From Myxococcota bacterium (GTDB lineage Bacteria; Myxococcota_A; Polyangia; Polyangiales; Houyiibacteriaceae): DNA of 64,000 bases. The stretch is from positions 1-64,000 of the forward strand of contig JANQQS010000026.1 in NCBI GenBank assembly GCA_028284955.1, in the 5' to 3' direction. Position 1 is the stretch's first letter, and every line of letters begins with the position of its first letter. The position numbers were made by a program, and so were the translations under genes. Positions 13,468 through 19,674 of the stretch are shown here, one piece after another. Under the pieces are notes generated by a model. That model saw nothing but the letters and a program-made list of their open reading frames with translations. It searched no databases and was not told where the DNA came from.

Positions 13468-14373
13468 ATGCCGAGCATGCTGCACGAATCGCTGGTGATG
13501 TTGCTCCACAACCAACCTCGGCTCGCCCCCGAACTTCTCACAACCGTTCTTGGCGTCCCTCTTCCCGCCCACTCCGACGTGCAAGTCGCCTCGGCTTCGC
13601 TCGCCGAACTCGTGCCCACAGAGTATCACGCAGACCTCGTCCTACTTCTCGTCGAAGGCCAACCCGTCATGGCCATCGTGGTGGAAGTTCAACTCAGCAA
13701 AAAGCCTCGCAAGCGCTTCACATGGCCTATGTACCTGATGGGCCTTCGCGCACGCTATGAGTGCGACGCCTGTCTATTCGTTCTTTGCGCGGACGACGAC
13801 GTCGCCCGATGGTGCGCTCAGCCCATCCTGTGCGGCCCCGGGAGCGTCGTTCAGCCACACGTCATTGGCCCTCAAGGCGTCCCCGTGGTCACCGACACAA
13901 ACCAGGCGGGAGCAGCTCCCGAGCTCGCGGTACTGTCCAGCATGGCGCACGGAAACGGATCGGTGCACACCGCCGTCGAAATCGCTACCGCCGCGATGAT
14001 CGCCGTGAGCAAGCTCGACGACGACCACACCGTGCTATACTCGGACCTAATCCTCGCATCACTCAGCGAAGCAGCCAGAAAGGCTTTGGAAACCATGCTT
14101 CCCAAAGGCTACGAACTACAAAGCGAATTCGCGCGCAAACACTTCGCCGAAGGCAAAGCTGAAGGAATCGCTGAAGGCAAGGCCGAAGGAATTGCCGAGG
14201 GCAAAGCCGAGGGGATCGCCGAAGGCGTGCTGGTCGTGCTCGAAGCCCGCAAAGTCCCCGTTTCTGAACAAGAGCGCCAACAGATCCTCGAATGCACCGA
14301 CCCGGAGCTCCTCAGGCGTTGGCTACGAAAAGTCGCCATCGTCCAATCCGTCGCGGAACTCTTCGACGCTTAG
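13468..14373 (+). CDS. Rpn/PD-(D/E)XK-family nuclease-like protein with EGKAEGIA repeats
   Basis: A 301-residue protein with an N-terminal restriction-endonuclease-like core: YHADLVLLL supplies the Asp (about residue 54), then EVQLSKK supplies the E-x-Q-x-x-K catalytic segment (about 74-80). This layout matches Rpn (recombination-promoting nuclease) and related transposase-like families. The C-terminal third has three 8-residue repeats AEGKAEGI followed by a helical tail, a common feature of these proteins. Expected activity is Mg-dependent DNA cleavage. It sits at the left edge of the accessory island next to mpl. Confidence 0.7.
   Translation: MPSMLHESLVMLLHNQPRLAPELLTTVLGVPLPAHSDVQVASASLAELVPTEYHADLVLLLVEGQPVMAIVVEVQLSKKPRKRFTWPMYLMGLRARYECDACLFVLCADDDVARWCAQPILCGPGSVVQPHVIGPQGVPVVTDTNQAGAAPELAVLSSMAHGNGSVHTAVEIATAAMIAVSKLDDDHTVLYSDLILASLSEAARKALETMLPKGYELQSEFARKHFAEGKAEGIAEGKAEGIAEGKAEGIAEGVLVVLEARKVPVSEQERQQILECTDPELLRRWLRKVAIVQSVAELFDA
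14146..14217 (+). repeat. Three in-frame 24-bp tandem repeats in the Rpn-like gene
   Basis: Units begin at 14146, 14170 and 14194 and encode AEGKAEGI. They differ mostly at third codon positions. Such repeats change copy number by slippage and here extend a charged helix. Confidence 0.85.
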
Positions 14374-14532
14374 CAGCGAATAGCTCTGGAAAGCGGTACT
14401 CGCGTCAGTCTGTACACAAGACCGCAACGGAGAACATAGCCCACGCTGAGGACAGCGGTTGTGCTCGCGAATCCCGGATGTCGTCCAGATCTGATCTCCA
14501 AGTACGTGCACCCGCGAAGCTACCGGTCTTCG

Positions 14533-16284
14533 CTAGTCGTAAACGTTCGGCGTCACGGGCGGTCGTGCGTAGGTCAGGTTCCTGAGATGGGCATCCGCAT
14601 CCGACGCGGCGGCAGGTGTGACTTCCATCCCACTCGCATGCGATTCGAGTTCCTTGTAAGTGGCCCACTTTAGCCGTTCGCTAGCCGACTGAGCTTCGGA
14701 CCGCTCAACTTCGAACGTCGTCTCGAGCAGCTTGATTCGATCCTCCTTTGCCGGAGGGTAGAGCGGAAGAATCGCGTCGAAACGGCCCGCTCGCACGGCG
14801 GCTGGGTCGAGCGACCCCACAAAATTCGTCGCCAAGAAGAAGAGGCATCGTTTCGAGTCGCGCAAATCGGCAAGCAGCGGCAACATGCTTGTAGTGATCA
14901 GGGTCGCCCAGTCCCCAGAGTCTCGTCCATCACGGGATGCGATGAAAGCGTCGAACTCATCGAACATGATCACCAGCTCCTCGACCTCGCGAAGACCCCG
15001 AAAGAGCGAGCGAGCACGCGCGATGATTCGGTCGGGACCTTCTTGAGCCAGATCCGCGGGCGTTACATACAAAAAGCCGAAGCCCATTTCCTTAGCGATC
15101 GCTTTCACCAACGAAGTCTTTCCTGTGCCGGGTGGTCCGAACAACACGGCCGACGCCGACGAACGGGTTTCGATATAGTGTTTTTTGAGCTTTCCGGTCA
15201 GATCGAACGGCGCAATATCGTAGTTTGAGAACGCGACATCAGCTGCGAACTCCCGCTCTACGACCAACCCGTAGTCTTTGCACAGTCGCACTGCGACGAT
15301 CTCTCGAAGAAGCCGCATTGCACTGAGTCCAAATTCGAACACGGAAAGCGTAGGCCAGGCTTCGCCCGTGTTGGTCAATCCAGGTTTTGCCCACCCTCGC
15401 ACGTCGGGATCATGCAAGCTAAGAAGTCTTTCTACCTGGTCGCTGATAAGAGTTGAGAGGCGATCGAGCCAGGCCGGAAGCCGATCCCACGCTCGCAGTC
15501 GTTCACTTGCCATAGCGCACAGGGCCGACAGGACCTCGGTCTCCAGAGGTGTAAAAAACTGGTCGCGACTGACGACCCGATAGGCACCGAGCCGAGGAGA
15601 TGATCGAGCGCTCCAACTGGAAAGAGCCACATCAATCCCTGCGTCGAAGAGTGGCCAGCTCGACTGGACGACGCACCCCTCAAGGCCAAAGACCAACTCG
15701 CCAGCATCAACTTCATGCGGCGGACCTGCAACGCTCCAGGCAATCTGCTTCACGACCGCCTCTTGATTTCGCGCCGCGATCTCCTTCTTCATCTCGACCG
15801 CTTTCGTCCACCAGCCGGTTTCATCCCAGCGGGACCAGCGTCGAATCAAGCGGGAGAACGTCGAAGAAAAGAGTGCGTGAGGACGGTCTGGGGAATGCGG
15901 TTTTCGGTAGTGCTGTGAGTCCTCGAAGGCTTCCACAACTCGGTCGGAAATGGGCGTGGCCTCCTCCAGCGTGTCGTCCTTTCGCATTACTCCAAGGCCA
16001 CGCAGCAGATCGTAGGTGCCCGCCTCCTGATCGTTGCGGAGGTTGGTCAACTGATCAGTGCGCTGTTGTTCGATCTTCGTTTGAACCTCTTTGAGGTTCG
16101 GATCGGTAGCGAACTGGTAGAAGATCTCGCAAGCCCTCAGCGTCGTCTTCCGAGCAACATCCTGACTCTTCTCGGGGTTGTGAACTAGGCCCCCGGCTTC
16201 TCCGACGAAGTGCTCTAGATCCGCACTGCTCTGCCTGACCAGGTCGCCGCAACGACGCAAACTAAGTTCTAAATCAGAACTCAC
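14533..16284 (-). CDS. AAA+ ATPase partner of the ThiC-like/nucleotidyltransferase protein
   Basis: A 583-residue protein. The C-terminal third is a classical AAA+ module: Walker A GPPGTGKT (383-390), Walker B VIMFDEFD (438-445), a sensor-1 ATN segment and RAGRFD arginine-finger region near 478-496. The first ~370 residues are mainly helical, Trp-rich in places (for example around 150-160), and show no domain I recognise; they may bind a substrate or partner. Its start overlaps the 3' end of the upstream ThiC-like/nucleotidyltransferase gene by 11 bp, so the two are made together. Codon use is less GC3-biased than in gyrB, suggesting horizontal transfer. A remodelling or regulatory ATPase role is inferred; the substrate is unknown. 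Confidence 0.8.
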   Translation of the reverse strand: MSSDLELSLRRCGDLVRQSSADLEHFVGEAGGLVHNPEKSQDVARKTTLRACEIFYQFATDPNLKEVQTKIEQQRTDQLTNLRNDQEAGTYDLLRGLGVMRKDDTLEEATPISDRVVEAFEDSQHYRKPHSPDRPHALFSSTFSRLIRRWSRWDETGWWTKAVEMKKEIAARNQEAVVKQIAWSVAGPPHEVDAGELVFGLEGCVVQSSWPLFDAGIDVALSSWSARSSPRLGAYRVVSRDQFFTPLETEVLSALCAMASERLRAWDRLPAWLDRLSTLISDQVERLLSLHDPDVRGWAKPGLTNTGEAWPTLSVFEFGLSAMRLLREIVAVRLCKDYGLVVEREFAADVAFSNYDIAPFDLTGKLKKHYIETRSSASAVLFGPPGTGKTSLVKAIAKEMGFGFLYVTPADLAQEGPDRIIARARSLFRGLREVEELVIMFDEFDAFIASRDGRDSGDWATLITTSMLPLLADLRDSKRCLFFLATNFVGSLDPAAVRAGRFDAILPLYPPAKEDRIKLLETTFEVERSEAQSASERLKWATYKELESHASGMEVTPAAASDADAHLRNLTYARPPVTPNVYD

Positions 16285-18394
16285 CGTATCCCCCTCCCGA
16301 CTTTCCGTGGAGATGCCATCGGCACTTCATTTCAAAGACCGCTGCGCTGGCCTGGTCGCGTCGATCACTACTTAGGAGCGCCATCACACCATCAACGCTA
16401 TCAGGTTGCTCCAGGAGTCCCTCGCAAGCTGAAATCAAGTTCCGAACCTTCTCTGCGTCCGCTAGGTCGCGAACGCGCGAGTGGTTGAGAACCGGATTGA
16501 TGAGAGACTCAATCTGAGTCCACCCGCGGTCCGCATTTGCTATTGCCTCGCCAGTTTGTTCGCTCCGGTCAGCGCGTGCGGCCTCGAGTGCGTCTGCGTA
16601 GGTTTGCGACCAAGTCTCTGGAACCCGTCTAAGGGATATCTCATCCGCGCACGTAGCCGTGAACGGAAGGCCCGCGAGTGTTGTGTATGCTGGCGCCAGT
16701 TTACAGACAAGACTCGCCAGGATCGCCTGTTGCCACCATTGACGGTCTTCGAGAGGGATCACCAAGCGGCCAAGATGGGTCACTCGCAGCACGTACCACT
16801 CTAGAGCACTTTGGAGAGAGGCTAGGACAAGCGGATCGATTCTCGAAACTTCGATCTCAGAGGCCACAACGCCAGAAAGTTCTTTGCCAGCAATCAGGGA
16901 GTAGCAGTACAGCTCGCGCAGAATGGCGGAATCATATTCGAGGTCGTCGGCGAGGGTTTCGGCCGCCCGAACGCGGACATCGACGTCGAATAGTGGTTGG
17001 TCCGGAAAGTTCTCCATCGCAGAGTAGCAGGCCCTCAATGCTGCTTCGCGATCTTCGCGAGAGGGAGCTGCCTTCACTACGTTGAGTTCGATGTCGCTCT
17101 GCAGGCGAATTCCGTCGCTACAGCGCGCATATGAGAACGTTCCTCGCGCGGTACTCCCAAAGAGGAGGACGGTGCCTCCCAGGGCTCGAAGGTTGTCGAT
17201 CAGGTCGCGCGCAACACCAACGACTTCCGCAGGGAGCAAATAGGGCAAGGCCGTCGTCAACGGATCGTCCGCGATCGCACCGCCGAGTTGAGTGAGCGGG
17301 CACTCGTGGACACAGCGGCTGCACCCAGCACGAACTGAACGTCGCACGACAGTCCCGGTCTTGCCGGATACATCCCCAACGCACGACTGAGAGTGCATCC
17401 GGTGCATCGCAACGCTCCGCGTCCGGCCACCGTACCCGCGATCAAGGTTCACAGCGTCGATAGCGACTTGCGCAATCTCCAACGCCTCTGCAGCACTCTC
17501 TAGGTTTGGAACCCCGCCGCCGTGTTCATCCCGCGTTACCGTTTGCGCGATTGCAAACTGCGGAAGCCCGGCCAATGCGGTGATCCCACACGCAGCGGCG
17601 ACCGGGTCAAGCCTACCAGCGTGATCGACCGGTGTGGGACCGAGAGCAACCAGTGGCAGCGGGAGACTCCGCCGCAAAAGCTCCGCAAACCGGCCGAGAT
17701 CCGCAATCGAAGCATGGCCGATGCCCTCCCGCATTACTTGGATACCCTCGCCAAGGAGGCGTGCACCAAGTTCGTCTTGGGCAAGAAGCTCTCGCTGATG
17801 AACGCGGTCCAATGCTTCTCCACACCAAGCCGGGCGAAAGGTTGAACCGAGGCTCAGCGCCATCTCTCTCCGGCGTAGGATGTCGACGATGGTTTCGATT
17901 CTCTCACCGAGCACATCACGTCCTGTGGATTCCAGGTTCGCGAGGACGAGCGCGCCGCCCCGGCTTGTGCTCGGCAGCACACGAGTCGCGCGCGCCTCGG
18001 CCAACATTTCCAAACCTGCCGAGAGGTGGAGTGTGATGTGCGTCACCCCGGACTGGGATGCACGTTCGATCTCGGCGACGACGCAGTCACCATCCAGCCG
18101 CCGCGAGATTGGATCGAAGTGCAGGTAGTGGGGCAACAGACCGATTGGCCCGTCGAATACTTCGGAGACTCGCTCATAGAGTCGTGGAGCGACCGGCACT
18201 GTGCTCAGATCCACCACGATATCCGGCCGTCGGTTGGCACGCGAGAGCAAGCCGCGGAGCTTCTCAATCTCGCGTTCTACCTCTCTCGGGGAGTTCGCGC
18301 CTATCGCCACCGCAGTTCTGACTGGCAGTCCCCCGCCCACGGCTAGGTAGCCTCGATTTGTCCGCAGGCGTACGTGTCCAGGCTCGCGCCTCAT
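16274..18394 (-). CDS. ThiC-like radical SAM domain fused to a nucleotidyltransferase domain
   Basis: A 706-residue two-part protein. Residues ~25-370 align by motif with the ThiC/BzaF core: VDLST (61-65), TLHLS at 121-125, SRGG (144-147), LSLGSTFRP (181-188 region), EGIGH ending in H227, LGPTPVD (251-257) and RDEHGG with H291. H227 and H291 are 64 residues apart, as are the two metal-binding histidines of E. coli ThiC. The cluster motif is CX2CX3C (C358, C361, C365) where ThiC has CX2CX4C. The ThiC N-terminal domain is missing, as in short BzaF-like proteins. Residues ~395-480 form a minimal nucleotidyltransferase: GSTARG (413-418), SDIEL (D434, E436) and FDVDV (470-472). A helical C-terminus follows. 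The known ThiC family rearranges aminoimidazole ribotide by radical chemistry; the product here is unknown. It overlaps the AAA+ gene by 11 bp. Confidence 0.78.
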   Translation of the reverse strand: MRREPGHVRLRTNRGYLAVGGGLPVRTAVAIGANSPREVEREIEKLRGLLSRANRRPDIVVDLSTVPVAPRLYERVSEVFDGPIGLLPHYLHFDPISRRLDGDCVVAEIERASQSGVTHITLHLSAGLEMLAEARATRVLPSTSRGGALVLANLESTGRDVLGERIETIVDILRRREMALSLGSTFRPAWCGEALDRVHQRELLAQDELGARLLGEGIQVMREGIGHASIADLGRFAELLRRSLPLPLVALGPTPVDHAGRLDPVAAACGITALAGLPQFAIAQTVTRDEHGGGVPNLESAAEALEIAQVAIDAVNLDRGYGGRTRSVAMHRMHSQSCVGDVSGKTGTVVRRSVRAGCSRCVHECPLTQLGGAIADDPLTTALPYLLPAEVVGVARDLIDNLRALGGTVLLFGSTARGTFSYARCSDGIRLQSDIELNVVKAAPSREDREAALRACYSAMENFPDQPLFDVDVRVRAAETLADDLEYDSAILRELYCYSLIAGKELSGVVASEIEVSRIDPLVLASLQSALEWYVLRVTHLGRLVIPLEDRQWWQQAILASLVCKLAPAYTTLAGLPFTATCADEISLRRVPETWSQTYADALEAARADRSEQTGEAIANADRGWTQIESLINPVLNHSRVRDLADAEKVRNLISACEGLLEQPDSVDGVMALLSSDRRDQASAAVFEMKCRWHLHGKSGGGYGEF

Positions 18395-18537
18395 CTATTC
18401 GAGTCTCGCAGCTCAAGCGGGAACTGCCAACCAACGGGCAGATACAGAAATTGCGCACAGTGCATCAACCAACGGGAGGCGGCGATTTGCCATCGAATCG
18501 GATAATGACCGACTGGCGGTGTGGTCCGCGGACGAGG

Positions 18538-18867
18538 CTAACACCGAACTGCGACCTTCAGCCAACTCCCTCTGACATGGGTGATGTCGAAGCAGCCCTC
18601 TCTAACTTGCAGCACGAACAGGGTCTCATTCACCGTGTTCTCGCCACCCTTGATCAGATTGAGCTGGCGGCGATAGACCTGCACGCCCATGCCGCTGCCA
18701 CAACCGCGCTGGCCACCCTCAACGAACTTCCTAAAGTCGCGATGGAGGGCAGAAGGATCTTCGGAGACACCTTGACGCACTCCAAGGAATGAGTCGGTAT
18801 AGCACTCGGTGAGTAGTTTCGAGCACGGCGGCATCCTGAAAACTTGCTCGCCGAGAATGTCCGTCAT
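18538..18867 (-). CDS. Small hypothetical protein coupled to the XRE gene
   Basis: A 109-residue frame whose ATG overlaps the TGA of the ancestral XRE reading frame (ATGA at 18864-18867), the usual sign of translational coupling. The product has a Cys-containing N-terminus and a strand-rich end (VLQVREGCFDITHV). In this position, after an XRE regulator, an ImmA/IrrE-type partner would be common, but I see no HExxH motif. A 144-residue frame on the opposite strand (18358-18792) overlaps it and cannot be fully excluded. Confidence 0.42.
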   Translation of the reverse strand: MTDILGEQVFRMPPCSKLLTECYTDSFLGVRQGVSEDPSALHRDFRKFVEGGQRGCGSGMGVQVYRRQLNLIKGGENTVNETLFVLQVREGCFDITHVRGSWLKVAVRC

Positions 18868-19223
18868 CGGGAGCCTCGCGCAGGAGATCGGGGGAGCACC
18901 TGCAGGTCGTTGGTGTTAGGTCCTGGCGTTCGATCCGGCGGGCGAGGGCAAGACCTAGGTTCTGGTACTGAGGCGGTGCGCCCGCGAGCTCCAGTTGAAC
19001 ACCCTTGCTGAGTACCGACTGCCGTCGCAGCTCATCGGTAGTTACGCCGAGGAAGCGTCTCAGCCAGGCGCGGCCACCATTTCTCTCCGAAAGGTGCCCG
19101 CACGCCGCGCTCGACCTCACCGAGGTAGACATGTGAACAGCCCAGGGCGTCGGCCAGCTGTCGAAGGCTCCAACCTACCTCGCGCCGCTTCCTTCTGATG
19201 TACTGGCCGAACTGTGAATTCAT
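18864..19223 (-). pseudogene. XRE-family regulator with two compensating frameshifts
   Basis: The start at 19223 has GGAGAACCT immediately upstream. Residues 1-55 form a helix-turn-helix: FGQYIRRKRREVG, SLRQLADALG, HVYLGEVERG. The intact frame stops at 19032. An extra base near 19050-19055 shifts the reading to a second frame that continues sensibly (GVTTDELRRQ, then ELAGAPPQYQNLGLALARR). A second indel near 18905-18917 returns to the first frame (NDLQVLP) and reaches a TGA overlapping the next start. The two shifts cancel. This is either a decayed regulator, a truncated 63-residue DNA-binding protein, or an assembly error. It likely controlled the ThiC-like operon downstream. Confidence 0.65.
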
Positions 19224-19235
19224 AGGTTCTCCGTG

Positions 19236-19265
19236 TTGTAAGGCGCACTTAACTCCCCCGGTCAA
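19236..19265 (-). promoter_or_regulatory. Possible sigma-70-type promoter for the XRE gene
   Basis: On the minus strand TTGACC (19265-19260) and TTACAA (19241-19236) are separated by 18 bp and end 13 bp before the chosen ATG. The match is moderate and the spacing to the start is short. Confidence 0.35.
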
Positions 19266-19490
19266 GGCGGTCGCGTCAACGCCCCGGGATGATCGGCCGA
19301 ACCAGCCGACTCACGATGCTCGGAAGTCGGTCCCGTACCCCGACGACTACTTCATTTGGCTGTCGACACGGTGCTCAAAGAGCGGACCATCTCGCTCCCT
19401 CATGTCCTCATGAGCTCCTCGCACGGTTGGCCAAAAGCCGAAACGCCAGAACTCCGCCTTCGGATAAGGCGCTCAAGATACTTCCCAGTA

Positions 19491-19674
19491 GGCTCGCAGA
19501 TGGCCTTGGGGTCGCCGGGGCGTCGTCCGTGCCAACCGGCCAGTAGGCCGAAACCCCGGTTGGCGCGGACGCCGAGGGGGACTTGCGCGGCGTAAGGAAT
19601 ACGCCACCAGTCTTGAGACGGCGCCGCATCTGCAAGTCCCCCGTCCCCGGCGACCCCAAGGCCATCTGCGAGCC
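19491..19674. repeat. Nested inverted-repeat element (about 184 bp)
   Basis: The outer arms at 19491-19520 and 19645-19674 are perfect 30-bp reverse complements. Inside are further perfect inverted pairs: 19531-19539 with 19556-19564 (9 bp), 19576-19586 with 19632-19642 (11 bp), and 19589-19594 with 19600-19605 (6 bp, 5-nt loop). The whole can fold into one long branched hairpin. It lies 41 bp past the gyrB stop and 268 bp upstream of the XRE start. It could be a structured non-coding RNA, a bidirectional terminator, or a small non-autonomous mobile element. Confidence 0.85.

Follow-up and report, generated by a model that had tools for sequence, protein, structure and literature searches.

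The window analysed here is a stretch of 64,000 nucleotides of contig JANQQS010000026.1 from a Myxococcota bacterium; positions below refer to it, and features lie on the minus strand unless stated otherwise. The locus contains P0001 (16274..18394), a 706-aa bifunctional protein with a ThiC-family radical-SAM half and a nucleotidyltransferase (NTase)-like half, whose ATG is directly preceded by an in-frame stop codon, and P0002 (14533..16284), a 583-aa AAA+ ATPase with an N-terminal region of about 370 residues. Direct reading of the minus strand over 14300-19500 showed that the two genes overlap by 11 bp, as the preliminary description of this DNA had reported. The GTG start of P0002 sits within the last codons of P0001 and is preceded by a Shine–Dalgarno-like GGGAGGGGG box; together, the overlap and the box suggest that translation of the two genes is likely to be coupled. 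An XRE-family helix-turn-helix regulator (19032..19223; HTH_31, E = 1.1e-10) starts at ATG 19223 and is cut short after 63 aa. Its C-terminal part runs on in another frame (18917..19048; GVTTDELRRQS...ALARRIERQDL, read within ORF 18731-19132), pointing to the frameshift already suspected for this gene. A coupled small ORF had also been assigned to the cassette. The minus-strand ORF 18538-18867 matched no family and had a codon score of 0.05, compared to 0.26 for a 71-aa ORF on the plus strand (18577-18792; MGDVEAALSNLQHEQGL...), and this gene is therefore not supported as part of the cassette.

The surroundings of the cassette were also inspected. GC3 of the cassette was 0.63-0.64, lower than that of the clpB-like, mpl and gyrB genes (0.73-0.75), in line with the reported drop in GC3, although the neighbouring XPB gene had a value of 0.66. 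Beside the cassette lies a gene on the plus strand (window 13468-14373) that encodes a 301-aa protein with EGKAEGIAEG repeats. The label Rpn-like given to this neighbour is weak, its match to TIGR01784 (NCBIfam, E = 9e-4) being below the cut-off. In ten relatives, neither the cassette nor mpl was found around gyrB, indicating that the locus is a synteny break, which is not the same as a proven clean insertion. The interval that separates the XRE gene from the 3′ end of gyrB holds a 184-nt palindrome (window 19491-19674), present as a single copy in the window. It has perfect arms of 30 nt with two further stems inside, and its predicted fold as DNA has an energy of −95 kcal/mol (z −11.9).

The N-terminal half of P0001 matches the Pfam family ThiC_Rad_SAM (PF01964) over residues 15-326 (17417..18352; E = 3.1e-33; score 115.6 bits, cut-off 25), and a sequence search of the PDB returned ThiC alone at significant E-values. 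An AlphaFold (AF2) model built from a seven-sequence alignment, good for the ThiC half only, had a pLDDT mostly of 65-93 over residues 1-320 but dipped around residues 253-262; a single-sequence model (pLDDT 35) was set aside. Foldseek comparison of the barrel model with the PDB showed that the top thirteen matches were all ThiC structures (E = 6e-18). Together with the presence of the metal-binding histidines and a C-terminal CX2CX3C motif, these results identify the N-terminal half as a barrel of the ThiC family rather than the unrelated TIM barrel that had been raised as a possibility earlier. The barrel is without the N-terminal stretch of about 45 residues found in short ThiC, its identity to ThiC is about 25-33%, its branch in the tree is very long (2.85 substitutions per site), and its score of 112.8 bits misses the NCBIfam ThiC equivalog cut-off of 410 bits. 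The candidate [4Fe-4S] site, C358-x2-C361-x3-C365 (CSRCVHEC; 17300..17323), aligns with CSMCGKFC of two ThiC relatives (L072 and L073), and by its sequence is compatible with cluster binding. The ThiC motif is CX2CX4C, compared to CX2CX3C in P0001. As the shorter spacing also occurs in several relatives (L040, L042, L045 and L049 among them), and the one of these that was scanned is labelled ThiC by NCBIfam, it was not considered a peculiarity of P0001.

To compare the active sites, P0001 was aligned with Arabidopsis ThiC (AtThiC; PDB 4s25), in which the chain index plus 68 gives the published numbering; this offset was checked on E422, H426, Y449, E489, H490, S342, D383 and R386. The roles of the AtThiC residues were taken from the structure paper (PMC4389238). 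In that structure, the substrate phosphate is held by the side chains of Y286, H322, S342 and R386 and the backbone of R343 and G344, the metal is bound by H426 and H490, SAM is contacted by L259, E489, R343, R386 and G230, the ribose is contacted by E422 and N228, and the imidazole ring is touched by D383 and Y449 (PMC4389238). The alignment showed that P0001 retains G230, L259, Y286, H322, S342, R343, G344, R386, E422, H426, E489 and H490 (AtThiC numbering), so that none of the residues that hold the phosphate of the substrate, SAM or the extra metal is replaced. H490 is the histidine of the EH motif, which is kept, and it is the GYDH histidine that is missing from P0001. Three residues are replaced: N228, which lies in NANIG of AtThiC, by alanine (A30), D383 by serine (S184) and Y449 by valine (V249). 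P0001 thus matches 12 of the 15 active-site residues, compared to 48 of the 101 near-invariant columns of the family (hypergeometric P = 0.006), making functional selection on the phosphate, SAM and metal site likely. Such a pattern is what would be expected of an enzyme whose substrate has changed while its machinery for the radical and the phosphate was retained. Since the residues reading the base (D383 and Y449) and one contacting the ribose (N228) are replaced, the substrate of P0001 is likely to be a phosphorylated compound other than aminoimidazole ribotide (AIR), the substrate to which the preliminary description had pointed. A nucleotide-like phosphorylated substrate would fit the conserved phosphate clamp.

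The C-terminal half of P0001 (residues 390-706; 16274..17227) appears to consist of an NTase core and a helical tail, and is modelled with low confidence. It contains the GS and three-carboxylate signature of pol-beta NTases, LFGSTARG...SDIE...LFDVDVRV (residues 411-475; 16970..17164), and none of 200,000 shuffles of this half gave the signature (GS-x-ARG ... SDIE ... FDVDV). However, no match was found to any Pfam (PF01909 included), NCBIfam, PHROG or PADLOC model; in particular, no PADLOC model, and hence no CD-NTase/CBASS model, matched P0001. Among the inspected matches to the C-terminal half in the phylum, only one protein (L024) was NTase-like, and the remaining ones look like chance. 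L024, a pol-beta NTase with an insert before its SD motif, shares with P0001 the layout GS...G...DG...L.SD(I/L)(E/D)L...(L/I)FDVD(V/I), but is not fused to ThiC and is 30% identical over the core only; its contig also carries glycosyltransferase-like and DUF362-like ORFs. Because the signature is present, no profile matches and L024 is the sole look-alike, the C-terminal half is called NTase-like, and its assignment as a pol-beta-type nucleotidyltransferase domain is made with good, though not full, confidence. Of the fusion originally described, the combination of a Pfam-recognized ThiC domain with an NTase signature in one ORF therefore stands, while its NTase half is recognized by no profile.

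The identification of P0002 as an AAA+ ATPase was borne out by a PF00004 match (E = 4.8e-23). Its AAA module (residues 380-506; 14767..15147) has all the classical AAA+ features: Walker A (GPPGTGKT), Walker B (IMFDEFDAF), sensor 1 (ATN) and the arginine-finger region (RAGRFD). Relatives in the phylum (L096 and L097) are 46-48% identical to P0002 in this module and stand without a ThiC or NTase gene, and relatives on rhizobial plasmids (L030 and L038) adjoin DUF4406 genes instead. FtsH-like AAA matches on plasmids were dropped as paralogues. The hhalign match of P0002 (to A10 and A11) with the phylum and rhizobial groups reaches upstream of the AAA module (352-382 columns), but most of it comes from the AAA part, and for the region beyond the module confidence is moderate. 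As its relatives are found beside different enzymes, this family looks like a portable ATPase, sharing an AAA module and an upstream region with P0002 but in no case adjoining a ThiC/NTase gene. The two rhizobial loci have an arrangement of their own, in which an AAA ATPase with a long N-terminal region is directly followed by the DUF4406 gene and, in L030, by a DUF4062 gene next. We take DUF4406 to be nucleoside-processing-like, which is suggestive only, and the pair is possibly an undescribed module.

The distribution of the fusion was determined by several searches. No orthologue of full-length P0001 was found in 317 genomes of the class, and none of its C-terminal half in 377 genomes of the phylum or in 72,556 plasmids. 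The fusion was likewise not found in viral contigs, or by exact or degenerate motif patterns in 84,980 genomes; the latter, for which artificial rows steered the choice of motifs, is weak evidence, since only one or two patterns of limited sensitivity were scanned. The literature that was searched contained no report of ThiC fused to an NTase and nothing relevant on ThiC with anti-phage activity. The linkage of ThiC, NTase and AAA genes has thus been seen in one instance only. Within the reach of these searches, the idea that it is a general association was not upheld, as the fusion had no orthologue and the AAA proteins closest to P0002 are without ThiC/NTase.

The host genome, which is 96.55% complete, was then considered for thiamine and cobamide genes. 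No second ThiC, ThiG, ThiE or TPP riboswitch was found in it (all of these searches had working positive controls), and a ThiC match was present in 40 of the 56 relatives searched alongside. The host looks like a thiamine auxotroph, and the absence of ThiE, ThiG and a TPP riboswitch makes a thiamine role for P0001, which had been considered at the outset, unlikely. A CobT gene was found (E = 1e-115), which leaves room in the genome context for a role in making a cobamide ligand.

Taken together, domain identity, the retained and lost residues, the gene overlap and the missing thiamine genes suggest that the locus comprises a ThiC-family enzyme that has been repurposed and carries a fused NTase, together with a coupled AAA+ ATPase and an XRE regulator, acting outside thiamine synthesis; we give this reading about an even chance of being correct. 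P0001 would probably make or attach a nucleotide-like product. For the chemistry, the substrate, the direction of the NTase, the role of the ATPase and the biological purpose, we infer the following scheme. The barrel would bind a small molecule through its 5′-phosphate in the ThiC phosphate clamp; SAM, anchored on the His227/His291 metal site, would be cleaved by the C358-C361-C365 cluster; and the resulting 5′-deoxyadenosyl radical would rearrange or modify the phosphorylated substrate. The C-terminal NTase may then add a nucleotide to the radical product, or link that product to a target, and the AAA+ protein may gate, assemble or remodel the enzyme or its target. Against this reading, P0001 is a singleton, its NTase half is matched by no profile, the ThiC N-terminal stretch is missing and the AAA relatives are without the fusion.

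Two reactions have been linked to ThiC-family enzymes, which convert AIR either to the pyrimidine for thiamine or to the hydroxybenzimidazole for cobamides. ThiC itself (PF01964; AtThiC 4s25 and CcThiC 3epm) has in common with P0001 the barrel fold, the phosphate clamp (Y286/H322/S342/R343/R386), H426/H490, E489 and a C-terminal cysteine motif; P0001 differs in the replaced N228, D383 and Y449, the missing N-terminal stretch, the fused NTase and the lack of detectable thiamine pathway genes in its host. The 5-hydroxybenzimidazole synthases BzaA/BzaB/BzaF (TIGR04386) are ThiC-family relatives with a non-thiamine product, as is proposed for P0001, but P0001 scores far under the TIGR04386 cut-off, has lost the AIR contacts and has no recognized cobamide gene alongside. 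P0001 belongs to the family by its domain, lies outside ThiC and BzaB by the membership features tested, and is regarded here as a new, repurposed branch with a putative function. A more specific and more doubtful form of this proposal is that P0001 represents a third functional class, which would rearrange a phosphorylated compound (a nucleotide or metabolite, but not AIR) and pass it to its own NTase under a dedicated AAA+ gate, in a new system of signalling, modification or defence based on nucleotides. As a family member in which the radical and phosphate machinery is retained and the AIR-reading residues are gone, fused to an NTase and coupled to an AAA+ ATPase in a host lacking a detectable thiamine pathway, P0001 would carry a radical rearrangement that ranks among the most unusual known into new chemistry. 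The reading yields directly testable predictions on substrate and product, and with orthologues or activity P0001 could become a new class.

Other explanations of the locus were weighed. By analogy with QueC-fold enzymes, which Qat and CBASS systems have taken up, the cassette might be an anti-phage conflict module in which the AAA+ protein senses infection and the fused enzyme produces a modified nucleotide or attaches one. The patchy distribution and the XRE regulator agree with this, as do the resemblance of the AAA domain to the IetA/TRIP13 defence ATPases (PADLOC; IetA-like, E = 2e-14) and the reuse of the QueC fold in QatC/Cap9, in which a base-biosynthesis enzyme was recruited into anti-phage systems (PMC13329287). 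However, the resemblance to the defence ATPases is confined to the AAA domain, QatC/Cap9 has a different fold and different genes and serves as an analogy only, and the fusion had no PADLOC match, nor was any defence model matched as a whole. For IetAS, which pairs an IetA-like ATPase with the protease IetS, a full-length IetA-like match was absent, the coupled partner of P0002 is the ThiC-NTase protein and no tested neighbour matched an Iet partner model; nor did the cassette genes match QatB, a QueC-like QatC or a TatD-like QatD. Scanning of ten other window proteins gave two PADLOC matches (kinase-like and helicase-like), of partial length only, and no tRNA was seen. A conflict module is accordingly judged unlikely, and the mobile-defence reading of the locus is only a suggestion.

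Less likely still, P0001 may make a benzimidazole-type lower ligand for cobamides, as BzaF does, with the NTase helping to attach or activate the ligand. BzaF-type enzymes are relatives of ThiC, CobT is encoded in the genome and the CX2CX3C spacing would agree, but the TIGR04386 (BzaB) score of 86.6 bits against a cut-off of 700 and the loss of the AIR contacts speak against it. In addition, no recognized cobamide gene adjoins P0001, and nucleotide activation in this pathway is normally the job of CobU, not of a pol-beta NTase.

Just below this in probability, the locus could be a degenerating, horizontally acquired remnant without present function. Decay would also agree with the long branch and the frameshifted XRE gene, and the absence of orthologues and the lower GC3 point the same way, but the two long ORFs (706 and 583 codons) are still open and overlap neatly, and the catalytic residues are retained more often than other positions of the family. 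That P0001 is simply the ThiC (HMP-P synthase) of this host, evolving fast and extended by a domain, which its status as the only ThiC-family protein in the genome and its mostly retained catalytic site would allow, is the least probable explanation, given the missing ThiE, ThiG and TPP riboswitch, the replaced AIR-reading D383 and Y449, the equivalog score (113 against 410 bits) and the far shorter distance of the relatives' ordinary ThiC.

Two further ThiC-like proteins were noted during the searches. The sole genome match of the pattern scans (L051, 8776-10044), from a Mycobacterium MAG, is an ordinary ThiC and was rejected as a fusion; EGPGH reads EGAGH in this ORF, its frame lacks the cysteine motif at the C-terminus, and it is perhaps a decaying copy. 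The other, on an IMG/VR contig (L075, 1995-3317), has SKGG instead of SRGG and SLGNG instead of SLGDG, and is a divergent and perhaps non-thiamine member of the ThiC family.
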